From: a virus
Reading direction: 5' to 3' (one strand)
Virus record (IMG/VR): IMGVR_UViG_3300031825_000378
Location: 1 to 38,255 of that record
DNA: 38,255 bases
Shown: piece after piece, positions 2,505 through 32,204 of the stretch
Numbering within the stretch: the first letter of the stretch is position 1
How the letters are laid out: each line of letters opens with the position of its first letter
The notes under the pieces: generated by a model
Told to the model about the DNA's origin: nothing
Seen by the model: the letters and a program-made list of their open reading frames with translations, nothing else
Databases searched by the model: none
Program-made: the position numbers and the translations under genes

Positions 2505-2506
2505 TG

Positions 2507-3178
2507 CTACTCCTGTAATTGGATGAGATCACCCCAGACCCCAATATCGAAGCCTGCGATGTACTGATTTCCCACGTCAAAGCCAAATAAAGGCCCTTCC
2601 ACATCCGGGACGATGTAATAGTTCACGCGTACACCCTCAGGCTTGATAGGGATGTAGCCGCCGACCAAGAGCGCAAGGAACACCGCTGAAGGACGAACTC
2701 CAGCGACACCTATGTCGATCGACATATCTCCGTTGTCTTGGATGAAGACGTGCGTACTGTCGCCAAAGATCAGCTTCAAGATCGCCGCGGACCCATCCAG
2801 AGTGCCATCCCAGTGGTTGGCGCCAATCTTTGCCCGTATAAGCAAGCGATACGTGTCATCGTCAAGGGTCGTGACACCTGAGTCTGGATCGAACGGTCCT
2901 TTCCACACGCCTTCATCAAAGCCTAGGCCGGAGACGTCAAGCGAGAAGTACACGCCCTCAAGTGGAGTCCTGACATGCCGAGAAACGCCGACCCAAAGGC
3001 CTACCGCATCAAGTTGGACCCCTACAGCCAGGTCAAGGTCATACCCCGGGATGAAGCCGGTAAAGACAGCCTGGGCATCGACGAACGACTGCGATACTGC
3101 GCCGACCATCGCAGAGAACTTCGGCTTGTCACGATGTAAAGCAGTGATCAATCCAAGGTACTTTTCGTTGTCGGCCAT
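2507..3178 (-). CDS. baseplate protein, DUF2612 family
   Basis: A 223-aa protein that fits the DUF2612 phage family, which follows gpJ in this kind of myovirus and has the role of P2 gpI. The N-terminus (LITALHRDKPKFSAMVGAV) and the VQLDAVGLWVGVSRHV segment are characteristic. It probably links baseplate wedge and tail fibre. It is adjacent to the baseplate J gene without a gap and lies 2 nt before the fibre gene. Confidence 0.8.
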   Translation of the reverse strand: MADNEKYLGLITALHRDKPKFSAMVGAVSQSFVDAQAVFTGFIPGYDLDLAVGVQLDAVGLWVGVSRHVRTPLEGVYFSLDVSGLGFDEGVWKGPFDPDSGVTTLDDDTYRLLIRAKIGANHWDGTLDGSAAILKLIFGDSTHVFIQDNGDMSIDIGVAGVRPSAVFLALLVGGYIPIKPEGVRVNYYIVPDVEGPLFGFDVGNQYIAGFDIGVWGDLIQLQE

Positions 3179-4360
3179 CTAGATCACCGTCAGCGTGACA
3201 GCCGCAGGCGTCATGTCTGCGGCCGCGTTGAATGCAAGGGGCACGTCTGGCGCTCCAGCCCCTCCGGGCCCCGACAGCGCCAGCGAGACCAGCTTGTAGA
3301 CGACACCGCCGCCGATTGAATTTGCTGCGGTAATGGCATCGCCCCACTCGACAGAACCGCCCAGCCCTCCACCGATCTCCACCGCATTCACATAGTCGGC
3401 GATGGCTTGCTTGATCTGATCGCCAATCATCGTTGTGTAGCCCGTCAACGCCCTGATGGTCAGCGCCGCGGTGATGGGAGCGGCCACCGGCCGGAAGAAG
3501 CGGATCGGATGCGCAATCCCGTAGATGTCGGTGACGATCTCGGTAGTGGTCCCATAGGTGCCAGTTCCCGGCGTTTTCTTGGCTGCGATAGCACTGGCGA
3601 TAGCCATCGCATCCCCGCCGTCCACCACGAGGCTGATGGAGTGAGCTGGGATGCCGTTTGCATCCGTAGTATTCGTGTCGTTCTCATAGGCTCGATAGCG
3701 CGCCACGCCTGCGATGGAGGCCACAGCACCCACCGTCCCTTCCAGCACCGTGCGAGACGGCAGTGCAACGGAAACGGCCTGACGCACGCGCAATGCGGCG
3801 TCGCTCTCGACTGGCGCACCCAGCGTGGCCGCGGCGGGGTTGGTCACCGACTGCCAGCCCCGCGTGGGGGTTCCGATCTGAGTAATCGTCCCTGCCGGTG
3901 CCGCTAGGGCTCCCTGCACAGTGTTGGTTGCCGTCACGGTCACCTCGCCAGCGGGCGGGATAATCACCGTTGCAGGAAGCGCCCATTGCTGCTGGTTCGC
4001 GTCCTTGGCAATGCCGTTCTGGATCGTCGTGCCTGCCTGGCCAACAATCCGCAGATCGACCGTCGACGCGCTCGCGGAGGCCCGGCTGATGCCGTTGATC
4101 TTGACGTTGCTGGATAGCGCCGCGCCGATACCCTTGGCCGGCGAGAAGGAGTTGTACACCTGGACGGCTGCGGTATTCGTATCGTTGATCGCCGCGGCGA
4201 TGATCGCCAGGAACTGGCCGTCCTGGCTGTCGGCCTCCAGATACGTGTCGGCGCCATAGATCGCCCGGAACTGGGACTGCAGGAAAGCCAGAACTTCCGC
4301 ATAGGTCGGTGCGTGGATGCCGGTTGCGTCTACCGTCGGCGCCGTAGTAGTGATGGCCAT
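3179..4360 (-). CDS. baseplate J-like wedge protein
   Basis: A 393-aa protein of the baseplate J family (P2 gpJ / T4 gp6 relatives), the main wedge component. The N-terminus (PTYAEVLAFLQSQFRAIYG, then LEADSQDGQFLAIIA) and the middle VESDAALRVR motif are typical. The start is the ATG at 4360, which shares one base with the gp25-like stop (TGATG) and has GAGGA upstream; the codon before it is TTG. It lies between the gp25-like and DUF2612 genes, the standard wedge order. Confidence 0.9.
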   Translation of the reverse strand: MAITTTAPTVDATGIHAPTYAEVLAFLQSQFRAIYGADTYLEADSQDGQFLAIIAAAINDTNTAAVQVYNSFSPAKGIGAALSSNVKINGISRASASASTVDLRIVGQAGTTIQNGIAKDANQQQWALPATVIIPPAGEVTVTATNTVQGALAAPAGTITQIGTPTRGWQSVTNPAAATLGAPVESDAALRVRQAVSVALPSRTVLEGTVGAVASIAGVARYRAYENDTNTTDANGIPAHSISLVVDGGDAMAIASAIAAKKTPGTGTYGTTTEIVTDIYGIAHPIRFFRPVAAPITAALTIRALTGYTTMIGDQIKQAIADYVNAVEIGGGLGGSVEWGDAITAANSIGGGVVYKLVSLALSGPGGAGAPDVPLAFNAAADMTPAAVTLTVI

Positions 4361-4713
4361 CAAATCCTCGCCTGTACCGTGGTCTGTCCATAGACCGTAT
4401 TAATCGTCGCCGCTACGGCCACGTGCCGCGCCTCCGTATCGAGGTCGCTGCTATAGGCCACCAGCTCCGTCACCCCAGGCGTGCCGAGGATGCGCTGGCG
4501 GATAGCCGCGTCATAGGTCGAGCGCGTGTTCTTGCCCAGGATCTCCTGCATCCAGGGCGCTCCGTCTGTCGTGTCCAGGAACCATTCCCCCCGGAACAGC
4601 ATCAGCCTCGTCTGGACCGCCTGCGCCACCGCCATCGGCGTGTCCCGGAAATAGTCGAGCTGTTGCCCGCCGAACGAGTAATCCCCGTTAGCGTCTAGCT
4701 TTCGATACCTCAT
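4360..4713 (-). CDS. gp25-like baseplate wedge protein
   Basis: A 117-aa protein positioned as gpW/gp25 before gpJ. It shows RYRKLDANGDYSFGG at the N-terminus and the TRLMLFRGEWFLDTTDGAPW segment found in gp25-like proteins of this phage type. The family initiates sheath polymerisation at the baseplate. Overlap with gpJ is one base. Confidence 0.8.
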   Translation of the reverse strand: MRYRKLDANGDYSFGGQQLDYFRDTPMAVAQAVQTRLMLFRGEWFLDTTDGAPWMQEILGKNTRSTYDAAIRQRILGTPGVTELVAYSSDLDTEARHVAVAATINTVYGQTTVQARI

Positions 4714-4721
4714 GGAGTCTC

Positions 4722-5468
4722 CTACACAACCGGCCCGGAGTTGGACGAACCACCCTGCACGCCGCTATGTGTGTGCGTGTCGTCGATGCGCTTACCGTTC
4801 GAGGTCAGCGACCCGAAGAAGTTGATGGCGCCCGTGATCGTCGCCGCGGCACCGGACACTGCGCTGCCAATCAGGCCACCCAGGAAGGTAAAGAGGCCAG
4901 TTACGGTCACCTTCTCGCTGAACGTGGCGTGCGGCGTAACCACCTCCAGGCCGCCAGGCGCTACGATGCGTAGCTTGTGGCTGTTCGGGTCCAGCTCAAA
5001 GAACGCCTGGCCGTCATCGCTACGCAACTGGGTGGCGCTCGTACTGATGCCTGGAATGGTGCGCGGCTGGGACCGGACGCCGACGAAGACGAAGCCGTCC
5101 GACAGGTCATGCATGCGCCGCTCAGCCTGCTCCTGAATGCCGCCCGACTGCCACCAGCTGTCGATGCAGCGCGACGAGAAAACGACAAGGCATTCGTCGC
5201 CGGCCTTGACGGGGAACGTCAGCGTACAATTCCCGCCAGATGGGAAGTGAACCGGGCAGTCCGTCAGTAGCGGCAACGCCGTGGCGACGAACTTCTCGTC
5301 CTCCCCGCGGATCGGCATCATGATCGACGGCTGCACGACACAGGTCTGCGCGGCTGGGTCGAACGATTGCACGATGCCGGGCAGCGCCGTCCAAATTTCC
5401 GCCTGCGACCCGCGGAATGACTGCCGAAAGGCCAGCTCAGGGTCGTTGGTTCTTTCTTGTCTGATCAT
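4722..5468 (-). CDS. baseplate spike, Gp138-like membrane-puncturing protein
   Basis: A 248-aa protein with an N-terminal OB-fold region like Gp138 (about residues 20-130, including ALPGIVQSFDPAAQTCVVQP) and a C-terminal beta-helical spike that ends in DDTHTHSGVQGGSSNSGP. The HTH motif near the tip is typical of the spike apex that binds an iron ion. It would form the trimeric needle that pierces the outer membrane. In related phages it follows the hub gene directly. Here a gene on the opposite strand lies between them. Confidence 0.85.
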   Translation of the reverse strand: MIRQERTNDPELAFRQSFRGSQAEIWTALPGIVQSFDPAAQTCVVQPSIMMPIRGEDEKFVATALPLLTDCPVHFPSGGNCTLTFPVKAGDECLVVFSSRCIDSWWQSGGIQEQAERRMHDLSDGFVFVGVRSQPRTIPGISTSATQLRSDDGQAFFELDPNSHKLRIVAPGGLEVVTPHATFSEKVTVTGLFTFLGGLIGSAVSGAAATITGAINFFGSLTSNGKRIDDTHTHSGVQGGSSNSGPVV

Positions 5469-5477
5469 GGTGGTGAT

Positions 5478-5843
5478 ATGAGAAAGGTTGTTTTGACCGT
5501 ACTGGCCTTAACGTGCATGTCCGCGAACGCGGAAGAGGTCTACATGCCGCGCAACTACCAGCTCAAGGTCGGCCAGGTGTTTGAAGACAAATTCCCGACG
5601 ATTTACTACATCAAGCAACCCTGCGGCTTGCCTTTGGTGAACAAGGAGCACATGCGCAAGTACACCTCGTTCCGAGGCGTGCTGGACGTCGGCTGCTGGG
5701 GCGAAACTATCGATGGAGATGTATTCACCGTCGTGCCCAAGATGGCATCCTCAACAATGCCAAAGAAGCTCTTGATGCGTGTCGATACGGTAGGAGACGG
5801 GAAGTTCAAAGTGCTTGACCTTCCGAGGCTTCAAGTTCCCTAA
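5478..5843 (+). CDS. exported moron protein on the opposite strand
   Basis: A 121-aa protein read against the whole surrounding late operon. Residues 1-18 form a signal peptide (MRKVVLTVLALTCMSANA, cleavage before EE). The mature part has Cys in QPCGLP and DVGCWG that could form a disulfide. It starts 10 nt beyond the spike start, head to head, and overlaps the hub stop by 4 nt. The start at 5478 gives a normal signal peptide; an ATG at 5457 is in frame. No family is recognised. Orientation and export suggest a lysogenic-conversion (moron) gene, which is inference. Confidence 0.7.
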   Translation: MRKVVLTVLALTCMSANAEEVYMPRNYQLKVGQVFEDKFPTIYYIKQPCGLPLVNKEHMRKYTSFRGVLDVGCWGETIDGDVFTVVPKMASSTMPKKLLMRVDTVGDGKFKVLDLPRLQVP

Positions 5844-6862
5844 AGATTGGTCTTTACGATCGCCAGCGCTGGGTCCACAACTTCGCCTTGCCGCACGAAG
5901 CTTCTAAAAGCCGTCACATCGGCGGCCAAGCACACGACCTCTGTGTACCAGTCGTTGCCCCGCGTATCTCCCCAGTGCTCGGCCAGCATCACGTAATACA
6001 GCCCCTCGTCGTTCAGAGCACTCTGCATTTCTATATTGCCATTCTCGCTCTGCTGCTTGATGTCTGGGTTGTACTCGTATAGTTGGATCGCCTCGTTCTT
6101 CAGCTGAATCAGCGTCCCGATCTTGACACTGGGATTCAGCAACATACGCGCTGTAATGCCGTTCGAAGTCTGCTCGGGCAAGCCGACCAGCCCAGTCTGA
6201 GGACTGATCACCGGTATGTCGCCAGGGTTGTAGGACGTTTCAGGCCAGAGGACTGCCTTACCATCCTGGATACTCCACACCGACTGCGTAGTCCTGGCCA
6301 CCCCCTCCATGAACTTTCGCGCCAGGCCAAACATCACTTTTCCTCGGGCGAGCCTCTGCTCAGTGAGGAACGCCATGTACCCGCGAGTAACACCCTTTTT
6401 TTCCATGGCCTTCATGGATGCATCCACCACGTCCCTCATCGTGGCGCCGGCCGCTAGGGTCTGGTTCACAAAACCAAAGTTGTATGCGCTGTCGCCGTCG
6501 GCGGCTGTGATGTCAACGTAGGTGTCGGTCTGGTTCTCTCGCCCGATCCGGACCTGAATGATGGTGCCATCGAAGATGATGCCGTAGTTGCCCTCATACC
6601 CGGCTTGCAGAACGACACGGGTGAATTCCTTCATAGTGCGCAGCGCCGTCTGCTCGGAAACGTTGTAGACACGAACGCGCAATGTGTTCGGCGTCTGGGT
6701 ATCGCCGCGCTTGATACGAAAGATGAAGCGCAGATCGGACAGGTCCAGCGCATCTTCGGTGCCGACGATCAGCGAGGCCTCGCGGATCCATTGTTCGGTG
6801 TCTTCGGCTGCCGTGACGTCGTCGCCGTAGGTGGTGATGGCGGGTAGTTCTTGAAAGGACAT
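5840..6862 (-). CDS. baseplate hub protein (gpD/gp27-like role)
   Basis: A 340-aa protein, beta-rich, with a DLRFIFRIKRGDTQTPNTL start region and a GYEGNYGIIFDGTIIQVR segment, typical of the conserved phage protein that forms the baseplate hub in this myovirus type. It would ring the tube end above the spike. AAGGA lies before the ATG. Between it and the preceding gene is a cUUCGg terminator, so the hub either has its own promoter or needs read-through. Assignment is from context and overall similarity. Confidence 0.75.
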   Translation of the reverse strand: MSFQELPAITTYGDDVTAAEDTEQWIREASLIVGTEDALDLSDLRFIFRIKRGDTQTPNTLRVRVYNVSEQTALRTMKEFTRVVLQAGYEGNYGIIFDGTIIQVRIGRENQTDTYVDITAADGDSAYNFGFVNQTLAAGATMRDVVDASMKAMEKKGVTRGYMAFLTEQRLARGKVMFGLARKFMEGVARTTQSVWSIQDGKAVLWPETSYNPGDIPVISPQTGLVGLPEQTSNGITARMLLNPSVKIGTLIQLKNEAIQLYEYNPDIKQQSENGNIEMQSALNDEGLYYVMLAEHWGDTRGNDWYTEVVCLAADVTAFRSFVRQGEVVDPALAIVKTNL

Positions 6863-6903
6863 CAGCTTTCCTTATGATCGGTCCAGTAAGATTGTTGCCG
6901 ACC

Positions 6904-6928
6904 AAAAAAAAGCCGCCCGAAGGCGGCT
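6904..6928 (-). terminator. cUUCGg terminator after DUF2335 gene
   Basis: Minus-strand perfect 7-bp stem AGCCGCC/GGCGGCT with UUCG loop and a run of eight T. It closes the transcript coming from the DUF2335 gene and stands 41 nt before the hub ATG. Confidence 0.85.
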
Positions 6929-6938
6929 GATGCGGGGT

Positions 6939-7487
6939 CTATTCCTGAGGCTTTGGGGGCCTACCGGCGGCTCTTTCACCGGGGGTTGGCCCAACTCGGT
7001 TTCTAACGGCCTGCACCATTCCAAGAACAGGCAGGGATACAAGCGCCACGGGTATCAACCAGTACCATCGAGAGGTCACGCCGTACGCCACACCCACGTA
7101 GGCAGTCGTGGCGGCAGCCAGCAAAGCGATCGCGGAAACAGCTGCCCCCAGGAGTTGGCCAGTCTTGTCGCTCGCAAAAATGCCGGATAGCCTGTCCCCC
7201 TCGATCCGGGTCAACGTTTGCCGATGCGCGATATCGGATTCAAGTTGCTGACGCTCCATCTCGCGCCGGTGTGCAGCCTCACCCTCCGCCATTGCAATAA
7301 TGCGGTCTGCGGCGCCAGGGGAAAGCTGATCGTACTGGCGGAGAAGTTCAGGCGGGGGTAACGGACCCTGATGAAACTGGGCCTGCATCATCATCTGTTG
7401 ATGAACGACCTCGCTTGATTGCTGACCGATCGGACGAGGTGGTGGCTGAACGCTGGCGCGGTGGTTCTGCTTACCGCGAGCCATCAT
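6939..7487 (-). CDS. DUF2335 membrane protein
   Basis: A 182-aa predicted inner-membrane protein. The N-terminal part carries the DUF2335 signature (FHQGPLPPPELLRQYDQL followed by AADRIIAMAEGEAAHR), then a helical segment, then two transmembrane helices (about residues 110-130 and 137-157) and a Pro/Arg-rich tail. The family is common in prophages and mobile regions; its function is unknown. It is the last gene of the module that starts with the antirepressor and is closed by a terminator. Confidence 0.8.
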   Translation of the reverse strand: MMARGKQNHRASVQPPPRPIGQQSSEVVHQQMMMQAQFHQGPLPPPELLRQYDQLSPGAADRIIAMAEGEAAHRREMERQQLESDIAHRQTLTRIEGDRLSGIFASDKTGQLLGAAVSAIALLAAATTAYVGVAYGVTSRWYWLIPVALVSLPVLGMVQAVRNRVGPTPGERAAGRPPKPQE

Positions 7488-7692
7488 GCCGCTTTATTGA
7501 ACGGCCGAAGTCATCCCCGATGCGGCGCACGTCATTGCGCAGCGCTTCGTTCGACGAACGGGCCGGGCGATAAAGTGGGCTGATCTGAGGCTCGTGGACG
7601 GTCGGCGCCGAGAAGTTCGAAAACAGCGCCAACGGGGCAGCAACTCCACCCCAAAACCCGCCCCAAAAAGCCTTTTTGCTACGCTTTTTCAT
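7471..7692 (-). CDS. small basic protein with one hydrophobic segment
   Basis: A 73-aa protein, basic at both ends, with a Gly/Trp-rich hydrophobic stretch (AFWGGFWGGVAAPLALF). It overlaps the DUF2335 start by 17 nt, suggesting coupled expression. The start at 7692 gives a lysine-rich leader typical of membrane insertion; the open frame runs further upstream but across a probable promoter. Function unknown. Confidence 0.6.
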   Translation of the reverse strand: MKKRSKKAFWGGFWGGVAAPLALFSNFSAPTVHEPQISPLYRPARSSNEALRNDVRRIGDDFGRSIKRHDGSR

Positions 7693-7752
7693 AGGTCTAC
7701 CAGTGTGCTCTGAGGAATCCGTCTTGAACGAAAATGACCTCACCACAGCGAA

Positions 7753-7784
7753 AATATAGCAGATTGCTAATTTTTCGAGCAATC
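7753..7784 (-). promoter_or_regulatory. candidate promoter with inverted repeat
   Basis: The minus strand shows TTGCTC, 18 bp, TATATT ahead of the 73-aa gene. The -35 and spacer overlap a perfect 7-bp inverted repeat GATTGCT/AGCAATC separated by 9 bp (7762-7784). The layout looks like a repressible promoter for the 73-aa and DUF2335 genes. The -35 match is weak. Confidence 0.4.
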
Positions 7785-7823
7785 ACAATCCAAATCCGGG
7801 GATGTATCTATCCCTCCCCAAGC

Positions 7824-7847
7824 AAAAAGCCCCTCCGAAGAGGGGCT
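7824..7847 (-). terminator. cUUCGg terminator after 96-aa gene
   Basis: Minus-strand perfect 8-bp stem AGCCCCTC/GAGGGGCT with UUCG loop and five T. It ends the arc-antirepressor operon. Confidence 0.85.
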
Positions 7848-7872
7848 ATCGATGGCGTCCAATTTCTGGACG

Positions 7873-8163
7873 TCATCCCGTCCGGCGCTGCCCCTTCTCG
7901 TACTCGGCAAGCCGACTCCGCGTCAAATCCAGCGTGCACTGCATCATGTCCAGCATGCGGTAGGCTGCGGTCAGAGGGTCCATAGGATCAGCCACGATCT
8001 GGGGCGGCTCCGCCGCCTCTCGAGGCTTCCTCATCACGGCGACGCCCTTCGGCAAACGTCCGCGCCGGGGCGGGTTCACCACCGGCGCCATGCCGGCCGT
8101 GGGCAGGTACGTCACCTCAGCCACCCGTTGCTCATGGGTTAAAATGATGCTACCGTCTTTCAT
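7873..8163 (-). CDS. hypothetical phage protein in antirepressor operon
   Basis: A 96-aa protein with no recognised domain. The first part is proline- and arginine-rich, the C-terminal third a helix (DPLTAAYRMLDMMQCTLDLT). AAGGA lies 8 nt before the ATG. It is the last gene of the operon led by the Arc-like repressor and is followed by a terminator. Function unknown. Confidence 0.65.
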   Translation of the reverse strand: MKDGSIILTHEQRVAEVTYLPTAGMAPVVNPPRRGRLPKGVAVMRKPREAAEPPQIVADPMDPLTAAYRMLDMMQCTLDLTRSRLAEYEKGQRRTG

Positions 8164-8189
8164 GTGATTTTTCCTTATTCGTCTAGGAC

Positions 8190-8336
8190 TTATCGCAGAT
8201 TCAACGCCTCGATGGTTGCCGCCGTCGAGGCGTTTCCTTTTGGGTCTGCCAAATCAATATGCCAGACCACATCGCCATTCCAAAACTTTTTGGCAGCTTT
8301 TGCACCCCTGATCAAAAGAAATTTCAGGGTTGACAT
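8190..8336 (-). CDS. 48-aa mini-protein with strong RBS
   Basis: A short gene beginning MSTLKFLLIRGAKAAKKFWN and ending IEALNLR. It has one of the best ribosome binding sites in the window (AAGGAGGAACC before the ATG) and overlaps the preceding gene by 13 nt. Its 3' end contains an 8-bp inverted repeat (CGCCTCGA/TCGAGGCG). No family is recognised. The RBS and the close packing are the main support. Confidence 0.6.
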   Translation of the reverse strand: MSTLKFLLIRGAKAAKKFWNGDVVWHIDLADPKGNASTAATIEALNLR

Positions 8337-8668
8337 GGTTCCTCCTTCTCGACCTGTCCAGAACATAATGACAAATCGCTGGGGGTAGATTCAAGTCCGG
8401 ACTGCAGCCGCCCTTCGCGGTTGACTTCAACCATGTGGCGCAGGACCTGATCCAGCACGGCGTAGTACAGCCAAACCAGTTCCGCGCACGCGCCATTCGG
8501 CAGAGCTGCTTTCAAGAGAGAGAACGCCTTGTGCGGCTGGGCATACGACTGTTGTGCCACATCATTGAGGATGCGAGCTTGGCTCTCGCGCTCGGCAAAC
8601 GCTTGGAACAAGGCCATATCGAATTCCATGTGCCCGGCCGGTGGCTGATAGTGCGTCGATGCGCTCAT
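8324..8668 (-). CDS. hypothetical protein coupled to antirepressor
   Basis: A 114-aa, mostly helical protein (MALFQAFAERESQARIL, then ELVWLYYAVLDQVLRHMVEV). Its ATG overlaps the antirepressor stop (ATGA), so it is translated with it. No family assignment. Position suggests a role in the induction pathway, which is inference only. Confidence 0.65.
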   Translation of the reverse strand: MSASTHYQPPAGHMEFDMALFQAFAERESQARILNDVAQQSYAQPHKAFSLLKAALPNGACAELVWLYYAVLDQVLRHMVEVNREGRLQSGLESTPSDLSLCSGQVEKEEPCQP

Positions 8669-9318
8669 TTCAAGAATTCCACGCCCAGAAGTGGCAATTG
8701 CGAAGGCTCGCCGTACAGCTTGAGTTGGTTGTCTTCGATGCGCTGCATATCCGCCGCCGTCTCGCCATTGGATTTCAGGCGGCCGCTGAATCCGAGCGTC
8801 TCGCTGATCTGCAGCACCGTCATCCCGCTCAATCGCTTGACGCCGATCCACCGGTTCAACGCGCCATACACCTTGGAAAGCGCAATCCTACGAACAGCTG
8901 CTATGTCGATCGCATCATGGTGTAGGGGTGCCCGGTCCAGCATTGTGCTGCGCCGGTCGCGGTTGCTGAAGTAGCTGTCCTCGAGTAGCTCAAACACGTC
9001 CCAGGCCTTGTCCGTCTCCAACATTTTGGCGTGCCGGGCAGCGCCACGCTCTGTCCACAGAATCAGCGACCGGGCTCTCGCACCGACAACAGGGTCAGAA
9101 TGGCTGACCCAGACAGCTTTGAAATCGTGAAGATCCTGCCCGGCCAACAGAAAGAAGTGCTTCCCTTCGACAAAGCGGGTCTTGTTGCTGTTGAAATTGC
9201 TCTTGATGTTGGTCGGCGCCGTTCCGTAGAGCGAGGCTAGGCATTCGCTCGTCACAACCGGCACACCCTTCCACGCTACGCGCGGCAGCTTCTGAGGGGT
9301 AACAGTGACGGAGGTCAT
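8665..9318 (-). CDS. ORF6N-domain antirepressor
   Basis: A 217-aa protein. Residues about 15-105 match the ORF6N domain (VAWKGVPVVTSECLASLYGT, then the FVEGKHFFLLAG segment) found at the N-terminus of phage antirepressors; the C-terminal half is helical and variable. It follows the Arc-like gene with an ATGA overlap and has AGGAGG before its ATG, the same arc-ant order as P22 immI. By analogy it would inactivate a prophage repressor; which one (CI or the Mnt-like protein) cannot be told from sequence. Confidence 0.8.
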   Translation of the reverse strand: MTSVTVTPQKLPRVAWKGVPVVTSECLASLYGTAPTNIKSNFNSNKTRFVEGKHFFLLAGQDLHDFKAVWVSHSDPVVGARARSLILWTERGAARHAKMLETDKAWDVFELLEDSYFSNRDRRSTMLDRAPLHHDAIDIAAVRRIALSKVYGALNRWIGVKRLSGMTVLQISETLGFSGRLKSNGETAADMQRIEDNQLKLYGEPSQLPLLGVEFLK

Positions 9319-9479
9319 TGGCGGGCCTCCTGGGGTTGTTCGGCTTGGCGGCTTTCCTCCAGCCGTTTGGTGATTTCCGCGTTCAGACTCCGGAAGTTGC
9401 GCTGCGCCTGGTCGGTGAGCCAAATCTTCAGGGTGACCGGCAGACGAAGCGGGTAGGAAACGGCTTGAGGGGTGTTCAT
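9315..9479 (-). CDS. Arc-like ribbon-helix-helix repressor
   Basis: A 54-aa protein with a short basic/hydrophobic strand (YPLRLPVTLKIWLTDQA) followed by two helices ending in RSLNAEITKRLEES, the Arc/MetJ ribbon-helix-helix pattern. P22 Arc has 53 residues. It is the first gene after the operator array and would dampen its own promoter and antirepressor synthesis. GGAGA lies before the ATG. Confidence 0.85.
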   Translation of the reverse strand: MNTPQAVSYPLRLPVTLKIWLTDQAQRNFRSLNAEITKRLEESRQAEQPQEARQ

Positions 9480-9494
9480 GGGTTCTCCATTAGA

Positions 9495-9509
9495 ATGGCT
9501 CAGTGCCAT
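9495..9509. promoter_or_regulatory. immI-like operator site 1
   Basis: ATGGCTCAGTGCCAT, a 15-bp site with perfect 5-bp arms. It lies just downstream of the predicted start of the arc-ant transcript, so a bound repressor would block that promoter. A degenerate reversed copy overlaps its right side. Confidence 0.7.
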
Positions 9510-9516
9510 AGAGCCC

Positions 9517-9546
9517 ATCATATGGCTCAGAGCCACCTAGAGTCCA
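9517..9546 (-). promoter_or_regulatory. predicted arc-ant promoter
   Basis: Minus strand: TGGACT (-35, 9546-9541), 18 bp, TATGAT (-10, 9522-9517), giving a start near 9510 and a leader of about 30 nt to the Arc ATG. Operator 2 fills the spacer. Confidence 0.55.
9522..9536. promoter_or_regulatory. immI-like operator site 2
   Basis: ATGGCTCAGAGCCAC; its core TGGCTCAGAGCCA is a perfect 13-bp palindrome. It sits between -10 and -35 of the predicted arc-ant promoter. Confidence 0.7.
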
Positions 9547-9554
9547 GTCGATAT

Positions 9555-9569
9555 ATGGCTCATAGCCAT
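9555..9569. promoter_or_regulatory. immI-like operator site 3
   Basis: ATGGCTCATAGCCAT with perfect 5-bp arms. It lies just upstream of the repressor promoter and of the arc-ant -35, so it could serve either promoter. Confidence 0.7.
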
Positions 9570-9580
9570 TGTATTTTTCT

Positions 9581-9595
9581 ATGGCTCTATGCCAT
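9581..9595. promoter_or_regulatory. immI-like operator site 4
   Basis: ATGGCTCTATGCCAT with perfect 5-bp arms. It overlaps the -10 (TATGAT, 9595-9600) of the Mnt-like gene, consistent with autoregulation. Confidence 0.7.
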
Positions 9596-9606
9596 ATGAT
9601 TCGATC

Positions 9607-10341
9607 ATGAACGAAGAACGCAAACCCCAGTCTGCCGATAAGTACATCATTCGCTTCCCTGACGGCATGCGCGATCAAATCGCTGAGGCCGCAAAGAAGA
9701 ACGGGCGAAGCATGAATGCCGAGATTATTCAGCGGCTGGAACACAGTTTCACCCCCTGGCAGGAACGCCCGTGGGAAGAGCGCATGGTGACCGACGTAAA
9801 CCGCGCCATGCTGAAGCTGCTGACGAAGGACGAGTACGGCATGCTCCTGGATCGCGTGAAGGCAGCCGGCGGCGCTGATACGGTTAACGGGTACCGAGCC
9901 GCAGTTGTACGCTCGGACGACGACTTGCAGCCTCCAATCCCCGACGGCCCTCGCCTGATGGAGATGGTGGCCAGCCTACCCCCGTCCGAATCAGAGAAAG
10001 ACGCGATAGCAACGCAGCTCGCTCTGGCGGTGCTGCGCCTGACCGGCAAACTGCCAGAAGGCTCGCACGATGGACCTGTCCTAATCCAAACTTCGCGCGA
10101 CGCTCTCTTGAAGCCGCTGGAGACGGTACGGCACATCGCCGAAAGCGGCCAAATTCGTTCCCGTACCCCGAAGATCCCCGGCCAGAACGCGCCTAAGGAA
10201 GGCTTGGGCGCCGCTCCAAAGGCTGAAAAACCCAAGAAGGAAAAGCCCGTAATCACCAAGAAGAAGGTGTTCGAGAAAGATGCGGGCGCAGAACCGATGA
10301 AGTTCGACCACACAACGAAGCCCGACCGCGGCGACAAGTAG
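9607..10341 (+). CDS. enlarged Mnt-like ribbon-helix-helix repressor
   Basis: A 244-aa protein. Residues about 10-50 form an Arc/Mnt-type ribbon-helix-helix (KYIIRFPDGMRDQIAEAAKK, then RSMNAEIIQRLEHSF). P22 Mnt is only about 82 aa; the extra about 150 residues here have no recognised domain and end in a Lys/Pro-rich tail (KAEKPKKEKPVITKKKV). It diverges from the Arc-like gene across the four operators. The ATG at 9607 has no ribosome binding site and lies 7 nt after a TATGAT -10, so a leaderless message is likely. An in-frame ATG at 9589 overlaps the operator and is less likely. Confidence 0.8.
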   Translation: MNEERKPQSADKYIIRFPDGMRDQIAEAAKKNGRSMNAEIIQRLEHSFTPWQERPWEERMVTDVNRAMLKLLTKDEYGMLLDRVKAAGGADTVNGYRAAVVRSDDDLQPPIPDGPRLMEMVASLPPSESEKDAIATQLALAVLRLTGKLPEGSHDGPVLIQTSRDALLKPLETVRHIAESGQIRSRTPKIPGQNAPKEGLGAAPKAEKPKKEKPVITKKKVFEKDAGAEPMKFDHTTKPDRGDK

Positions 10342-10355
10342 GCAGCGCGGCCACC

Positions 10356-10658
10356 CTACTCCCTCGTCACCCAGTACACCTTCGACCCAAACCCCAGGTC
10401 CTCGAACGTAGGCAACGCGTCGGGACCGGCGGCACCCTGCACGAACAGGCCACCCTGGAATCCCAGGTGCCTGAACTGCTCCAGCAGATCCGCGCCGGTA
10501 ACAAGCGGGATACCGCCCACCAGAGGGTTGCCGCCTCCATCGGCGATATCCACCGTCCAGCCGCCGCGATACAGCAGCGTCAGCCGGTAATCGACGCCGC
10601 CCAGCGTGATGCCGAAGGTCTGAGGCGCTGGCGTCAGCGGGATCTCGTATACCGCCAT
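10356..10658 (-). CDS. baseplate plug protein
   Basis: A 100-aa protein matching the phage baseplate plug family: start YEIPLTPAPQTFGITLGGV, then YRGGWTVDIADGGGNPLVGG. It would fill the centre of the baseplate between tube and spike complexes. It follows the Dit-like gene by one base, with GGAGG before the ATG. In related phages the hub gene comes next; here the immI-like block intervenes. Confidence 0.8.
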   Translation of the reverse strand: MAVYEIPLTPAPQTFGITLGGVDYRLTLLYRGGWTVDIADGGGNPLVGGIPLVTGADLLEQFRHLGFQGGLFVQGAAGPDALPTFEDLGFGSKVYWVTRE

Positions 10659-10659
10659 A

Positions 10660-11262
10660 TCAACCTCCAATAGAACTGGGAACCGGCAGCGCCCCGCCTG
10701 GTGCCGGCGTGCCTGGCAGGGGCGCCTTTGCTCCCTTGTTCTCCGTCTCCGCGGTGGCTGCCGGGTCTTCCTGCACATCCCGCGGAGGCAGGGTCGTCGC
10801 CTTCGTCTTGACGATAATCACCTCGCGCAAGGTCGCCGTGACCATCAGCGCGCCAGACGTCTTATCGTCGTTGATCACCATCAGGCTCTGGATGAGCATG
10901 TTCGAGTACTGCCGCCGGCAGGTGACCAGGTCGAACGGCTTGCGGGACTCCTGCAGGGCCAGCAGCTGGGAGTAGACGGCGTCCACGTAGGTAGACGTCG
11001 CCGGCATGCCGTTGTTCACCTTGGCCGGCGTCCCACCGAGGATGGCCGTGTAGTCGGAGTTGCTCCATCCACATTTGATGATTACCTCGTTGGGCCGCTT
11101 GAACGCATGATCGTTGATGTTGGCGCCGTTCTCGACGGGATGCTCCGTGATGGTGAGCTCGTCGTGGTAGACCTCTTCCAGCGTGGCCGATATCGTGATG
11201 TCGCCGATCTTCTTCGACGACAGCAGGATCATGTCCAGGCCCAGCGAGTCGATAATGCTCAT
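10660..11262 (-). CDS. Dit-like tail / baseplate protein
   Basis: A 200-aa protein. The N-terminal about 150 residues (GDITISATLEEVYHDELTIT, then the HAFKRPNEVIIKCGWSNSD segment) fit the N-terminal domain of Dit-like phage tail proteins; the C-terminus is a Pro/Ala-rich tail. Its ATG overlaps the tape-measure stop (ATGA), the expected place for the protein joining tube to baseplate. Confidence 0.75.
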   Translation of the reverse strand: MSIIDSLGLDMILLSSKKIGDITISATLEEVYHDELTITEHPVENGANINDHAFKRPNEVIIKCGWSNSDYTAILGGTPAKVNNGMPATSTYVDAVYSQLLALQESRKPFDLVTCRRQYSNMLIQSLMVINDDKTSGALMVTATLREVIIVKTKATTLPPRDVQEDPAATAETENKGAKAPLPGTPAPGGALPVPSSIGG

Positions 11263-13199
11263 CCTTGTGCCCCACCGATGGTTCGTACCGCCGCGTCATT
11301 GACGCGCCCTTGCTCGCTGGCCACTGCTTCAGCAACCGCCATCGGATCGCGGGCGCCGCTGACGTAAATGGTGGTGTTGGCGCTCATCGAAACAGCCTTC
11401 GATTTATCTGCGGTGACTGCGCGGCCCTGGTCGGCCCCGGCGTAGTACCCCTGCCACGGCTGTTGGTCCAGCCTGCTGAGCACGTCGCGGTAGTACTTCT
11501 GCGATTCGGCCGGCATACCGTCCAGGCCAAGTTTGCCAAGGTTCCCGATGCCGCCGTTGTAGGCCGCCAGCGCCTTCTTAAGATCACCGCCAGTCTGCCC
11601 AAGCAACCATTTCAGGTAGCGTGCCGCGGCGTTGGCTGACTGCTCCAGGTCATTCGGATCCTTGAGCCCCACTTCCTTGGCCGTCGCCGGCATGAATTGG
11701 AAATGGCCCTCCGCCCCGGCCGGAGACAGCATGTTCTTGCCGCGTCCCGATTCCTGCAGCCAAACGCTGTCCAGCAAGCCCTGAGGCAAGCCGTATTGCT
11801 TCTCCAGGTTGTCGAACAAGGCCCCCGCCATGGGGTTCGGTGGAGCGCTGATTTGAGGGGTGGGAGCAGGTGCGGCGGCCGGCGTAGGCGCGGGCACTGG
11901 CGCCGGTACGGCTTTCAACTGCTCAAGCTTCTTTGTGTACTCGGCGATATCCCGCTCCAGCGGAATCTTCTCTGCCTGGTACTTCGCGGCATTGCGCGGA
12001 TCCAGTTCGATCAGCTCATCCTTCTCCTTGATCCGAGCCTGACGGTCGGCAATGCGCTGCTTGATGCCCTCTTCCGTGCCGGTCATCTGGTGCTGCACGT
12101 AGGCCCCCCCGATGGCTATAGGAGCGCCGATAGCTGCCGCAGCCAGTGCGGTCGTGCCGATCGTCGCGCCAGCAGCTACGCCAGCGCCAGCTGCCGCAGC
12201 ACCACCCGCCGCCGCTCCGGCCTGGGCTGCCGCTGCCGCCCCGCCCACACCACGCAGTGCTGCCGATAGCTTCCCAAGGCCACTCAGGATTTGGAAGCCA
12301 CCAAGGGCCTTCAGCGCGGCCACCGCCAGCAAGATGTTGGTCGTCCAGCCGTTGGTTGCCTTGTCCCACTCGACAAACTTCTCGATGACGGCGCCCAGGA
12401 CGGGCAAGATCGTCTCAGCCATCCGCAGTACAACCTGGGCCACGTCGGAAATGCGCTTTGCGATTTCCGGCGCATTGTCCTTGAACCATGCCGAGAACCG
12501 CTTCAGCTCAGGCCCGACCTTCTGCTGCAGGTCCGCCTGGATCAGCGTGAACATGTTGTCCGCAGTGCGGCCCAGCTCGCGGATCGAGTTCATCAGCTCG
12601 TGGGCGTCTTTAGCCGCCCGCGACATGCCGTTGTTCTCGGACTCCTTACGGATCTGCTGCAGGCGTTCGACGAAAGCCGGATCCCGCATTGCGAGCATCA
12701 GGTTCTCATCGATCCCGAGCACACTGCTGTACTGGCTGGCCAGCCACGTGGGCTTTGCGGCCATCACGCGCCCGATGTCCGCGACGAGGTCGACCGTGTC
12801 GCGCAGATTGCCGTTGGCATCCCGCGTCTGGACTCCCAAGCTGGCGATGTACGACTCGCCCGCTGGGTTGTTCCGCATGAACTTGGCGATAGCCTCCACA
12901 CTGCCCAGGGCGACGTCGGCGGACACGCCGAAATCGCGCGCCGCGCCACCGAGCGCCCGCAGGCTATTCTCGGTGGCGCCGACGCGACGGCCGACGAAAT
13001 ACAGGCTCTCGATCTTGGACGCGAAGCCGGCGACGCTGGCGCCGATGGTCAAGGCGGCGCCCTGGATGGTTGCCACCAGGCGCACAACGCCCTTCGTGGA
13101 ATCCTCGACCCCCTCCTTGAAGGTCTTGAGCCCCTTCTGGTCGACCTTGAAGCCAAGGGCGACCAGGAATTCGCGGATCACTTCAGCGTTGCCGGCCAT
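11259..13199 (-). CDS. tape measure protein with SLT transglycosylase domain
   Basis: A 646-aa protein that sets tail length. After an N-terminal helical region come hydrophobic Ala/Gly-rich segments (about 295-370), a charged helix, a Pro-rich linker (VPAPVPAPTPAAAPAPTP) and, at about 455-560, a lysozyme-like transglycosylase domain with the catalytic Glu in WLQESGRG, then GHFQFMPATAKEVG and AAYNGG. The domain would open peptidoglycan during DNA entry. The start at 13199 has GGGAAGAAGG upstream; it overlaps the frameshift product's end by 17 nt. Confidence 0.9.
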   Translation of the reverse strand: MAGNAEVIREFLVALGFKVDQKGLKTFKEGVEDSTKGVVRLVATIQGAALTIGASVAGFASKIESLYFVGRRVGATENSLRALGGAARDFGVSADVALGSVEAIAKFMRNNPAGESYIASLGVQTRDANGNLRDTVDLVADIGRVMAAKPTWLASQYSSVLGIDENLMLAMRDPAFVERLQQIRKESENNGMSRAAKDAHELMNSIRELGRTADNMFTLIQADLQQKVGPELKRFSAWFKDNAPEIAKRISDVAQVVLRMAETILPVLGAVIEKFVEWDKATNGWTTNILLAVAALKALGGFQILSGLGKLSAALRGVGGAAAAAQAGAAAGGAAAAGAGVAAGATIGTTALAAAAIGAPIAIGGAYVQHQMTGTEEGIKQRIADRQARIKEKDELIELDPRNAAKYQAEKIPLERDIAEYTKKLEQLKAVPAPVPAPTPAAAPAPTPQISAPPNPMAGALFDNLEKQYGLPQGLLDSVWLQESGRGKNMLSPAGAEGHFQFMPATAKEVGLKDPNDLEQSANAAARYLKWLLGQTGGDLKKALAAYNGGIGNLGKLGLDGMPAESQKYYRDVLSRLDQQPWQGYYAGADQGRAVTADKSKAVSMSANTTIYVSGARDPMAVAEAVASEQGRVNDAAVRTIGGAQG

Positions 13200-13431
13200 T
13201 GCCTTCTTCCCTTGCCCGCCGCGCGAGCACTTCATTGTCAGCCTGCACGGCCGCCGCGTCGTTCATGAGCGCGATGTCGGCCAGGTCGATCGAGCCGTCC
13301 AGCAGCTTGTCGTAGTGGATGTGACCGCGCAGGACTGGCGCCAGCAGCCAATCCTCGCCGTCCGGCAGGCTGGCCCAGGCTATTGCGCTTCGGCCGGCCC
13401 GCTCCCTTGGCTGGTAAGCAGGCCTTGCATA
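13183..13431 (-). CDS. C-terminal extension of tail chaperone (-1 frame)
   Basis: An 82-codon reading frame (from YARPAYQPRE) with protein-like content: LPDGEDWLLAPVLRGHIHYD and IDLADIALMNDAA, resembling DUF6889-type phage proteins that sit between tail chaperone and tape measure. It has no convincing own start codon or RBS. It is reached from the chaperone gene by a -1 shift at the CCCTTTT heptamer, giving a 212-aa fusion. An independent non-ATG start (for example CTG) is the alternative. Confidence 0.75.
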   Translation of the reverse strand, partial: YARPAYQPRERAGRSAIAWASLPDGEDWLLAPVLRGHIHYDKLLDGSIDLADIALMNDAAAVQADNEVLARRAREEGNGRQR

Positions 13432-13820
13432 AAAGGGCCGAGGTTCTGGGTGATGACGCGCACGATCAGCGGCAGAATCACGCCCAGATCCATGTCTTGG
13501 AACATGCATACACCCTGGCTCGTGCTCCACACGTTGGCCCATGCGCCGTTCTGCTGGCGCTGCACCACGCTGAGGCAGACGCCCATGATGTAGTCCGCGT
13601 CTTCGTCCTTCATCGCCGCCAGGCCGTCGGTGAACGGCTGCAGCAGCTCACCGAGGCTTGAAGGATCGTCCATCAGCGGTGTTCCGCCCTGGGCCAGACG
13701 CAGATACACCGGGATAAGGGGCGGAATGACAGGCGCGATCCGTCGCGACAGGTGAAACTGCTGCTTCGCGTTCAGGCGCCCGATGGAGTAGCGGTTCCCG
13801 GAAAGCTCGATTTCAGCCAT
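13380..13820 (-). CDS. tail assembly chaperone, zero-frame product
   Basis: A 146-aa protein in the lambda gpG position between tube and tape measure. It is mostly helical (NAKQQFHLSRRIAPVIPPL at the start). Its ATG shares one base with the tube stop (TGATG). Codons 129-130 (CCT TTT), preceded by C, form a -1 slippery heptamer, so part of the ribosomes should make a longer form. Such short and long chaperones coat the tape measure while the tube grows. Confidence 0.85.
   Translation of the reverse strand: MAEIELSGNRYSIGRLNAKQQFHLSRRIAPVIPPLIPVYLRLAQGGTPLMDDPSSLGELLQPFTDGLAAMKDEDADYIMGVCLSVVQRQQNGAWANVWSTSQGVCMFQDMDLGVILPLIVRVITQNLGPFMQGLLTSQGSGPAEAQ
13431..13437 (-). other. -1 programmed frameshift site CCCTTTT
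   Basis: On the minus strand the heptamer reads C CCT TTT in the chaperone frame, matching X XXY YYZ. The tRNAs for Pro and Phe can re-pair after a one-base backward slip (CCC, TTT). The -1 frame is open from 13542 to 13183, so the shift yields a 212-aa fusion. GC-rich sequence follows, but I see no clear stimulatory pseudoknot. Confidence 0.8.
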
Positions 13821-14260
13821 CAGTAGGTCCCCAGCAACGTGTCGATTTTCATGGCGTCGAATACCCATTCGACGATGTCGCCATCCTTGGCGTAAGTCAG
13901 ATCCGGCTTTCGCTTGAAAGCACAAGACCGGCAGGCCGTGACGTCATTGCTGGCGCTGTTGGTGACCGTGATCAGGTTCTTGCCCCACAGGCGACTGTCC
14001 AACGACTGGGCGTCATACAGCGCCTGCAGCAGGGCATTGGTGGGCGACGTCTTCAAGTACCGCAGTGTGACCTGGCCGGACTTGTCGGCGTGCAGACTAT
14101 GCATGCCCTCGCCGTCCGCCCCGATCATCATGGTGTTCTTGTCCGCGCCTGGCGCGATCGTGATCCCCTCTTCTGCGTTCGCCGAGCCATATCCAAGGCT
14201 GAACGCGCCGCCGGGCCCGACCAGATTGGCGGACACATCCATAAAGCTGTAAGTGGTCAT
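13820..14260 (-). CDS. tail tube protein, DUF3277 family
   Basis: A 146-aa protein with the usual tube start (MTTYSFMDVSANLVGPGGAF) and DKSGQVTLRYLKTSPTNALL in the middle, as in the DUF3277 family that follows DUF3383 sheaths. It would form the inner tube. Length and order (sheath, tube, chaperone, tape measure) fit. Confidence 0.85.
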   Translation of the reverse strand: MTTYSFMDVSANLVGPGGAFSLGYGSANAEEGITIAPGADKNTMMIGADGEGMHSLHADKSGQVTLRYLKTSPTNALLQALYDAQSLDSRLWGKNLITVTNSASNDVTACRSCAFKRKPDLTYAKDGDIVEWVFDAMKIDTLLGTY

Positions 14261-14269
14261 GCTTGCCCC

Positions 14270-15745
14270 TTATCGGTTGACCGTGACCAGAACGTCGACG
14301 GTATGAATGGCGCCCGCCTCCTTGGCGGCGACCTGGAACGGAACGGCCTTGCGCGCCTCGCGGTCGGCCTGCGACTGCGTAGCGATCGCCGGCGCGTAGA
14401 CGTAGTAGCCCTTGGCCAGCGTCTCGCCCTGCTTCAGCGCGCCGAAACCTCCAGAGTTCCACACACCTGGCGCCAGGTAGCCGTTGTTGACCGCGGCTTC
14501 GCAGGCCGCCTCGATAACCGAGGCGATCAATTGATTGCCAGCGTCAGTCTGGGGCACTTTCGTGGGGCTGGTGTACAGCAGGTTGTAGACGTCCGTCTGC
14601 ACACGGTTGCGGAACCAAATCGCGTTGTAGACCGAGTCGATGAAGATCCCGCTGGGCGTCACGCCGTACTGGATGATGGCCGTATCGTTGTCGTAGGCCA
14701 CGAACACGTTGCAGCGTTTGGCCTCCAATGTGTTGGCCTGCGTGCTCGTCAACGTCTCGGCCACAATCCCCGGCTCCTGCTTGTACATGAGCGTGATCGT
14801 GGTGTTGTTGGCGTTGAAGTTCACCGTCAACAGACGCCCCAGCAGAGAGGCGGCGGCATACGAATTGCTGCTCGAGAACTGCACCATCGAGTACTTGTAG
14901 CTGAGCGCCTTGAACTTGCTCGCGATATCGGTCGTGGAGACAGGATCCAGAACCTGGGCGGCCTTCGTGCTGACCGCGTACAGGTGGCGCTGATCGGCCT
15001 CGATCAATGCAGCCACCTCCAGATGGTCGCTGTCTTCCATAGCGGCATCGGCGAAGGTCAGGCCCAGGAACTTGTTGGCGAAACGATCCAGGAACACCGC
15101 CACGGCATCGACAGGGCTTTCTGCGACGATGCCAGCCTCAGGCGCACTAGCTTGCGTCGAGGTCAACCCGAGCATGGCGGAAACGTCGGTACCCGTTGCC
15201 GGGGCGGTCGCGTAGCCAATGGTCGAAGCAACGCCCGTCGTGTCGGAGGTAACCACAAACTGCGATCCATTCCAGACCACCGCCGCACCGGTCAGCGCGG
15301 TGTCGATCTTGCTGGCTACGCCATTGAGATTGGTCTCCGTCGAAAAGTCCAGGGCAGCGACGGTTTTTTCCGCCCCGTCGACCTGAATCTTGAAGCCACC
15401 AGCCGTCACGGCGTTCCATGCCGCCATGTCTTTCTGAGCGGCGGACAGCACGGCGCCGCGAAGCGAACCCGCACTGGCGGTCTTGGCCCAACGGCCGATA
15501 TACACCTGGGCCGGCTGGGGCGTTTGCTGGAAGTAAAGTGCCGCGGCCAGATACTCGGGAGCAGTCGTCCCGAAATCCGCCGCGACGGCATCGATGTCCC
15601 CATACGCCCGCATGCGCTCGCCCGTGCCGATGACGGGAGAAGCGCCCAGAAGCAGCGCGGTGTTCAAGTTCGCGCCCTGGGCGGCCAGGGGTGACATGTT
15701 GATCGATACGTTGATCAGACGAGATACGGGCAGTCCATTGGCCAT
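14270..15745 (-). CDS. contractile tail sheath, DUF3383 family
   Basis: A 490-aa protein of the DUF3383 sheath family (start [34 protein letters not shown]; conserved C-terminal region with [20 protein letters not shown]). Its presence shows a contractile tail. The ATG at 15745 has AGAGGA upstream and lies 17 nt after a hairpin/U-tract. It is one of the most highly made late proteins in this phage type. Confidence 0.9.
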
Positions 15746-15762
15746 GGGATCCTCTGCGATCA

Positions 15763-15790: not shown

Positions 15791-15809
15791 GAATACGGTG
15801 CTTTGGGGC

Positions 15810-16394: not shown

Positions 16395-16397
16395 AGC

Positions 16398-16772: not shown

Positions 16773-16774
16773 CG

Positions 16775-30763: not shown

Positions 30764-31027
30764 TCATGCCGCAGTCGCCTCGTGTGCTCGACGCTGGCGT
30801 TTCGGCTTGCGAAGCACGTCCCATCGAAAGCTGGGCAACAGCTCTTCGCAGCGCACGCCGGTGGCCTCCTCGATCAGCGGACAGTGCTCGGAGGGGAGCG
30901 GACGCTTGAGATTCACCCACTCATGAACGCTGACCGGCGTCACCTTGAGAATGCGAGCGAGGGCGGATTGCCCGCCGGCTATGTCGCATGCTCGGGCTAG
31001 GGATTCGTGTCGTTTTTTCATGTCCAT
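30764..31027 (-). CDS. Cro repressor, YdaS-like
   Basis: An 87-aa helix-turn-helix protein of the YdaS/Cro type: ARACDIAGGQSALARILKVT followed by VSVHEWVNLKRPLPSEHCPL. It is the first gene of the leftward arm, facing CI across three operators. The ATG at 31027 falls at the predicted transcription start of PR, with no RBS, so the message is probably leaderless; an ATG at 31021 is also in frame. Confidence 0.85.
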   Translation of the reverse strand: MDMKKRHESLARACDIAGGQSALARILKVTPVSVHEWVNLKRPLPSEHCPLIEEATGVRCEELLPSFRWDVLRKPKRQRRAHEATAA

Positions 31028-31095: not shown

Positions 31096-31112
31096 GTTAG
31101 GCAATGCTTAAT
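31096..31112. promoter_or_regulatory. operator OR3
   Basis: GTTAGGCAATGCTTAAT matches the palindrome at 12 of 17 positions and covers the CI start codon. Binding here would shut off CI synthesis. Confidence 0.65.
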
Positions 31113-32204
31113 GGAACTGACCTCGGAGCTGCCATTAAGGCAGCCATTGAAAAGAAGATCGCCAGCGGAGCCGTCGCTTCGCAGGCCGCGATCGCACGTC
31201 ATTTCAATGTCAGGCCACCTTCCATCCACGACTGGATAAAGAAGGGCTCGATCTCCAAAGACAAACTCCCGGAGCTGTGGCGCTATTTCTCGGACGTCGT
31301 GGGCCCGGAACATTGGGGCCTAAAGTCTTGGCCAGACATGGGGTCGTCCATAGCATCAGAGTCGGCGCCTCAGCACAAGCCGTGGCCTTTCAAGACGATC
31401 CCCGAAGACCAGATCCATGAGCTACCGGAGTCCCAGCTAAGCGCCCTTGAGGGCGCAATCCAGCTGGCTATCGCCCAGATGAGGCTCGGGATCCAGGTTT
31501 CAGCGCAACCGCTCGCTACGCCGACCCGAGTTTCTGTACCGATTCGTTCGCACAAGCCGGGCGGCCTAGTCGATATGGACCATGCCGACGATCCATTCCC
31601 CATGCGAATCCAAGGCCTCCCCCCTGCCCCGTGGGAAGGCGGAAATACAACACACCAGGCAGAAGCCAATCCCAAGATCCGGATCAGCACCCAAACTGGG
31701 GTGATCGCAAATGTCGGCCCAGGCGAACCTTACGCAGCGAACGACAAGTTCGACAAGGTGCCAGAGATGGCCGACGTGCGGCTTGCCGCCGGCGATGGCA
31801 TCGAGAACCACATCGAGGAACAGACTGGCGTGATGCACTTCCGCCGCTCGTTCCTGCGCGCAGTGGGTGCAGATGCCGGGAAAGCCAGGGTTGTCTACGC
31901 CAAAGGCGATAGCATGGAGCCCATCATTCGTGATGGAGCTGCGCTGCTAGTCGTGCCGAACGAGGATCTGACCGTACGCGACCTCGCCGCGGGCGGCGTC
32001 TACGCCATCAACTACGACGGCAAGATGATCGTGAAGACGGTGACGCGGGATCGCCTGACGAAGCAATGGGTGGCGCGGTCATTCAATCCGGCTTACCCCG
32101 ACATCCCACTTGAGAATGGCACGCCTGTGCGCGTGCTGGGCCAGGTTGTCTGGTCTGGCGCCAGGTTGCGGGATGATGAGGCGGGACAGTGGGTGAGGTC
32201 CTGA
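31104..32204 (+). CDS. CI prophage repressor, S24 autocleaving
   Basis: A 366-aa repressor. Residues about 18-50 are a helix-turn-helix (GAVASQAAIARHFNVRPPSI). The C-terminal S24/LexA domain holds Ser270 in YAKGDSMEPII and Lys311 in MIVKTV, with a probable cleavage bond Ala229-Gly230 in RLAAGDG. RecA-stimulated self-cleavage would induce the prophage. It is long for a CI (lambda 237 aa) because of an about 130-residue linker. The ATG at 31104 lies within OR3, with no RBS. Confidence 0.9.
   Translation: MLNGTDLGAAIKAAIEKKIASGAVASQAAIARHFNVRPPSIHDWIKKGSISKDKLPELWRYFSDVVGPEHWGLKSWPDMGSSIASESAPQHKPWPFKTIPEDQIHELPESQLSALEGAIQLAIAQMRLGIQVSAQPLATPTRVSVPIRSHKPGGLVDMDHADDPFPMRIQGLPPAPWEGGNTTHQAEANPKIRISTQTGVIANVGPGEPYAANDKFDKVPEMADVRLAAGDGIENHIEEQTGVMHFRRSFLRAVGADAGKARVVYAKGDSMEPIIRDGAALLVVPNEDLTVRDLAAGGVYAINYDGKMIVKTVTRDRLTKQWVARSFNPAYPDIPLENGTPVRVLGQVVWSGARLRDDEAGQWVRS

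Follow-up and report, generated by a model that had tools for sequence, protein, structure and literature searches.

Why should genes for two ribbon-helix-helix (RHH) repressors and an antirepressor lie among the baseplate genes of a temperate phage with a contractile tail? The question is raised by IMG/VR record IMGVR_UViG_3300031825_000378, analysed here as one stretch of 38,255 nucleotides (nt; the window), in which a block at 6863-10355 sits between the genes for the baseplate plug and the baseplate hub, as seen from the list of open reading frames (ORFs) and from Pfam and PHROG matches. The initial annotation had described this block as a second immunity module, resembling immunity I (immI) of phage P22 and inserted in the baseplate operon. 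We consider it probable that an accessory Mnt/Arc/antirepressor cassette, exchangeable and acting in the manner of P22 immunity I (an 'ant moron'), has been inserted between plug and hub, together with a separate accessory slot.

All parts named beforehand were recovered by the Pfam and PHROG searches: the gene for a Mnt-like repressor on the plus strand diverges from genes for an Arc-like protein, an ORF6N antirepressor, small proteins and a DUF2335 protein on the minus strand (Table 1). The small genes number four rather than three (114, 48, 96 and 73 amino acids (aa)). As in P22 immI, the Mnt-like gene diverges from arc-ant and the Arc-like gene stands directly ahead of the antirepressor gene. 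The antirepressor start overlaps the arc stop by 4 nt (ATGA), and both proteins are probably made from one mRNA.

Hub homologs were gathered from viral contigs and bacterial genomes and the gap between plug and hub was measured, so that 96 loci could be scored; they were sampled by hub similarity and include several near-copies. Plug and hub abut (gap ≤15 bp) at 75 of the 96 loci, a cassette of the window's layout is present at 11 (the window counted), and the other 10 carry other genes. This synteny comparison bears out the earlier statement that plug and hub normally follow each other and that the block is inserted, most relatives having an intact junction. The insert-free loci include the Burkholderia phages BgManors32 and Magia as well as loci of Cupriavidus and Burkholderia genomes, hence phages manage without the block. 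On a tree of the hub protein the cassette label needs six changes, at least five of them forced by starred branches, which indicates repeated gain and/or loss of the cassette. The plug-hub junction is an optional, recurrent insertion site.

Orientation is constant in every junction cassette seen, with the repressor gene opposing the late genes and the remainder running along them. A Mnt-like and an Arc-like protein are accompanied by a P22_AR_N Ant and Rha in phage WC36-2 (identical in loci L053-L055), by a P22_AR_N Ant in L077 and by a KilA-N+ANT protein in L060. L062, to which L066 and L067 are close, has an HTH_3 repressor at the Mnt position, followed by an Arc-like and a KilA-N+ANT protein, and L005 combines a Mnt-like protein and a weak Arc candidate with a KilA-N protein. 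The survey of junction contents thus shows that the architecture is constant, whereas the parts are exchanged.

The exchange can be followed at the DNA level between the window and L005, whose hub and plug are 98.5% and 94% identical to those of the window. L005 is homologous to the window at 10297-16968 (with a gap at 11397-11900 in the tape-measure gene), 7828-8346 and 2287-6924. It is unrelated at 8347-10296, a segment comprising the repressor minus its last ~15 codons, the operators, arc, the antirepressor and most of the 114-aa gene, and again at 6925-7827, the DUF2335 slot. The breakpoints fall at the mnt 3' end and at the two terminators. Repressor, operators and antirepressor are replaced wholesale between near-identical phages. 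This kind of cassette is already known; the newer point is that close relatives show the regulatory cassette swapped as a unit at one exact spot.

In L005 the DUF2335 slot is filled by a gene on the opposite strand (L005:8791-9696), the product of which is weakly DUF2971-like and matches the PADLOC candidate-defence model PDC-S31 (E 6e-10). Because a near-identical phage carries an unrelated gene there, DUF2335, present as annotated, is better placed in an accessory slot of its own, flanked by two terminators, than in the immunity switch. Both annotated terminators exist, on the minus strand in late direction, but only that at 7847-7828 is internal, the one at 6928-6911 closing the block. DUF2335 and the 73-aa gene between them might form a separate moron expressed in the lysogen. 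DUF2335 is a predicted membrane protein of the PHROG category moron and may serve in superinfection exclusion, like SieA of P22; a literature search on what DUF2335 does found no paper.

The repressor is indeed oversized, having ~245 aa as compared to the 83 aa of P22 Mnt, i.e. about three times the length. Its head is 27% and its body 80% identical to those of a relative in L103, the upstream repeats being different, and L105:9434-10264 encodes an HTH_3 head fused to a basic C-terminal tail that is 70% identical to the Mnt-like tail of the window. Repressor body and tail thus travel under different DNA-binding heads, and the tail apparently stays constant while heads are exchanged. Relatives of the Mnt-like protein in named phages cover no more than the RHH part and what directly adjoins it; a megablast search of the block and a tblastn search with the 96-aa gene both gave no match in named phages. 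The C-terminal domain of the antirepressor is common to the window (ORF6N, 8665-8960), L053 (WC36-2 type; Rha, 9325-9930) and L005 (KilA-N, 7245-8012), where it is joined to three different N-terminal domains, and the structural model of the window's antirepressor is confident solely in the C-terminal helical part. The antirepressors of L103 and L105 are of Bro-N and Rha type, respectively, and both are followed by the 48-aa and 96-aa genes.

Four ATGGCTCNNNGCCAT palindromes are confined to the divergent region between arc and mnt (9480-9606). Counted on both strands, this sequence matches the window seven times, against 0.22 matches expected by chance; none of 100 shuffles gave as many, and it was found nowhere else in the window at one mismatch. 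The sister cassette of L060 contains a different palindrome, RTGGCGACTCGCCAY, in a near-identical array, the starts being 26/34/24 apart versus 27/33/26 in the window. The palindromes are putative binding sites of the Mnt-like and Arc-like proteins. A TATGAT at 9595-9600 lies six bases ahead of the Mnt-like ATG at 9607. A simple rule by which the repressor β-strand sequence would set the operator half-site was considered: L103 and L104, which have similar heads, share repeats, and TGGC half-sites are common to the window, L060 and Edwardsiella phage GF-2. We do not claim such a rule because phages SPN3UB and ST11-VIM1phi8.1 have the same motif, DKF..RFPDGMR, and nevertheless different repeats.

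The annotated gene order in P22 is 16, sieA (-) and mnt (-), then arc (+) and ant (+), a terminator and 9, and the block of the window has the same layout. In both, an RHH repressor gene diverges and opposes the late genes, arc and antirepressor genes run along them, the module lies within the late operon, operators (putative ones in the window) occupy the divergent region and a terminator precedes the next late gene; high variability between relatives is a further likeness, and so, perhaps, is an adjoining exclusion gene (sieA in P22). The module of the window, however, stands at the plug-hub junction of a contractile-tailed phage whereas P22 immI precedes the tailspike gene, and four near-identical palindromes take the place of one Arc and one Mnt operator. 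The coexistence of an immI-like module with a CI/Cro region in one phage, as annotated, was confirmed. A contrast to P22 had been seen in the location within late structural genes and in the myovirus background. It fails on both counts, since the late operon of P22 likewise contains immI, between genes 16 and 9, and temperate myoviruses with such a module exist (Edwardsiella GF-2 and Edno5, Paracoccus vB_PyeM_Pyei1). P22 immI has been named 'ant moron', inside the late operon, and ten types of it were counted in sixteen genomes (PMC2629481).

GF-2 resembles the window in being a myovirus whose baseplate operon contains Mnt (-), Arc (+) and Ant (+), here ahead of plug and hub, and for the temperate Edwardsiella myovirus Edno5 ImmI has been named in print (PMC6372524). 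CI, Cro and CII homologs are reported for these Edwardsiella phages. They differ from the window in that the insertion lies one gene before the plug, the GF-2 antirepressor is of Bro-N type and Mnt is short (89 aa). The WC36-2 cassette shares junction and orientation with the window, but has other antirepressor N-terminal domains, a Mnt-like protein of 79 aa and different repeats in the divergent region. In Paracoccus phage vB_PyeM_Pyei1, Salmonella phage SPN3UB and Klebsiella phage ST11-VIM1phi8.1 a Mnt (-)/Arc (+)/antirepressor (+) cassette lies inside the tail operon and is co-directional with it, although it stands before the tape-measure gene and has other antirepressor types. For Paraburkholderia prophage phi437 two consecutive Arc genes and an adjoining Ant gene are listed (PMC5567305). 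A rule that such cassettes are always found in the tail operon did not survive a check of a few named phages, as the related genes of JLK-2012 and PhiR5_1 lie in the early region.

These features suggest how the cassette may work. In a lysogen the Mnt-like repressor would occupy the four palindromes and silence the arc-ant promoter, site 2 lying between its candidate -35 and -10 elements, while tuning its own promoter via site 4. When a naive cell is infected, or if repression breaks down, arc and ant would be expressed from one translationally coupled mRNA and the ORF6N protein would inactivate CI, tipping the phage to lysis, with Arc soon shutting the arc-ant promoter again. The terminator at 7847-7828 would stop the cassette transcript ahead of the late genes, and late transcription in the same direction would have to read through it. 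In P22, late polymerases reading through the ant moron affect the tailspike level (PMC2629481).

Alternatively, the cassette may be regulatory with an antirepressor directed against repressors of other resident prophages or of the host instead of the phage's own CI, making it a moron for lysogenic conversion or prophage competition. Antirepressor families are freely swapped at the junction and most relatives lack any; the target need not be the phage's own CI. On the other hand, P22 provides a precedent, its C2 being inactivated by Ant, and the phage of the window has a CI/Cro region of its own; we regard this alternative as rather unlikely. The RHH proteins and small genes could also belong to a toxin-antitoxin or defence island and not to an immunity switch, as the RHH domains weakly match antitoxin models and the L005 slot gene matches PDC-S31. 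Beyond a weak match of the ORF6N domain to PDC-S05 (E 3.6e-4), however, the block contains no toxin or defence family, and the order of divergent Mnt and Arc-antirepressor is that of P22 and GF-2. On the basis of the defence-model and family searches we rejected this as the main explanation, and consider it very improbable. An embedded satellite or integrated mobile element, comparable to helper-embedded phage-inducible chromosomal islands (PMC10111431), would fit a block that lies within late genes and is missing from most relatives, but is largely refuted and hardly credible: the borders lack direct repeats, the window lacks an integrase, the block lacks a replication or packaging gene, and the L005 breakpoints coincide with the mnt end and the terminators. 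Finally, that these are ordinary baseplate genes fixed in the lineage, as their position between plug and hub might suggest, is refuted by the 75 uninterrupted junctions and by contents that differ between near-identical phages, and has practically no probability left.

Several observations weigh against the reading of the block as an immI-like ant moron. The antirepressor is of ORF6N type and gave no Pfam match to P22_AR_N, the domain found in P22; there is no room for the P22 sar RNA, which lies between arc and ant in P22, since the overlap of 4 nt leaves no spacer in the window. At L052 the junction holds two Arc-family proteins and no recognised antirepressor. The candidate promoters resemble the consensus weakly, the AlphaFold model of the Mnt-like protein was too poor to be used (pLDDT 42), and Foldseek, run with the antirepressor model, returned nothing from the PDB at E ≤0.001. 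No integrase was found in the window, which is possibly an incomplete linear record. Having neither a P22-type Ant nor room for sar, the block is therefore immI-like in working and not P22 immI in the strict sense; the initial designation holds for the broad likeness, the layout being that of P22 and GF-2. The block is a member of a broader ant-type moron kind in the tail operon: it is optional at an otherwise intact junction, arc-ant runs along the late genes and the repressor against them, and a terminator precedes the next late gene.

Table 1. Genes and sequence elements in and around the block, and the CI/Cro region, in window coordinates.
Feature	Position	Strand	Remarks
Baseplate plug gene	10356..10658	-	Left insertion border; Pfam Pam3_gp18 plug E 4.6e-23
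Mnt-like repressor, RHH head, long body, basic C-terminal tail	9607..10341 (ORF opens 9589)	+	Pfam Arc E 3.6e-16
Operator-like palindrome, site 4	9581..9595	.	Directly upstream of mirrored TATGAT 9595-9600
Operator-like palindrome, site 3	9555..9569	.	Palindrome search
Operator-like palindrome, site 2	9522..9536	.	Within spacer of candidate arc-ant promoter
Operator-like palindrome, site 1	9495..9509	.	Palindrome search
Candidate arc-ant promoter, TGGACT-18-TATGAT	9517..9546	-	Consensus match alone
Arc-like RHH repressor, 54 aa	9315..9479	-	Pfam Arc E 2.2e-5
ORF6N antirepressor, 217 aa	8665..9318	-	Pfam ORF6N E 8.8e-17; best PHROGs annotated anti-repressor, E 2.5e-47
114-aa gene	8324..8668	-	No family match
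48-aa gene	8190..8336	-	Also 3' of antirepressor in L005, L103, L105
96-aa gene	7873..8163	-	Also 3' of antirepressor in L005, L103, L105
Terminator ending cassette transcript	7847-7828	-	Fold -16.2 kcal/mol, z -1.9; kept in L005
AT-rich promoter-like element ahead of DUF2335 unit, TTGCTC-18-TATATT	7753..7782	-	Putative, read off the sequence; missed by consensus scan
73-aa gene	7471..7692	-	No family; overlaps DUF2335
DUF2335 predicted membrane protein	6939..7487	-	Accessory slot; Pfam E 6.3e-17; PHROG category moron
Terminator closing block before hub	6928-6911	-	Fold -14.3 kcal/mol, z -3.4
Baseplate hub gene	5840..6862	-	Right insertion border; Pfam E217_GP41; PHROG baseplate hub E 7.7e-67
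CI repressor, S24 domain, RacR-type N-terminus	31104..32204	+	Presumed antirepressor target; domain search
Cro/YdaS-type gene, divergent from CI	30764..31027	-	Domain search

Some further observations concern the junction and its surroundings. Other junction inserts (L042:8786-9947, L016:8375-9535, L014:9299-9814 and L061:1063-1545) encode proteins without a Pfam family, and the 254-aa gene of L042 seems to be split in two frames in L016. Hub and cassette proteins of L002 (OL791266.1, UNVERIFIED 'Phage WC36-2') match those of three IMG/VR contigs of other origin (L053-L055) at 100% identity, and the true host of this entry deserves a check. Between the spike and wedge genes of L052 lies a Rha-like stretch (12390-12680) with 44% identity to the WC36-2 Rha; regulatory genes thus enter the baseplate operon at more than one junction. 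In the window a small plus-strand gene with a putative signal peptide (5478-5843) is located between hub and spike, on the opposite strand to them. Its product is 48% identical over part of its length to Magia gp21, and in BgManors32 the equivalent spot is taken by a plus-strand gene; this position is possibly a second accessory slot of the baseplate operon.

A more far-reaching idea, which we put forward tentatively and with more doubt than confidence, is that the junction between plug and hub in this Burkholderiales-linked lineage of myoviruses serves as an immunity-type switch point. The DNA-binding head of the repressor, operator array and antirepressor would be swapped as a matched set, while the body or tail of the repressor, the pair of small genes downstream and the genes for the virion would be retained, so that near-identical virions would turn heteroimmune; the repressor body and tail would then be a shared platform with a role beyond DNA binding. 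For P22-like phages it was asked in 2008 why the ant moron occupies a single site, and whether a single ancient insertion or the lack of any other tolerated site is behind it (PMC2629481). The ant moron at the plug-hub junction provides data on this question: a cassette of that kind is found at another tail junction, is scattered over branches of the hub tree, keeps one orientation throughout and exchanges several antirepressor families. With near-identical plug and hub and a replaced repressor, operators and antirepressor, the window and L005 make immunity-type switching by cassette exchange directly testable.

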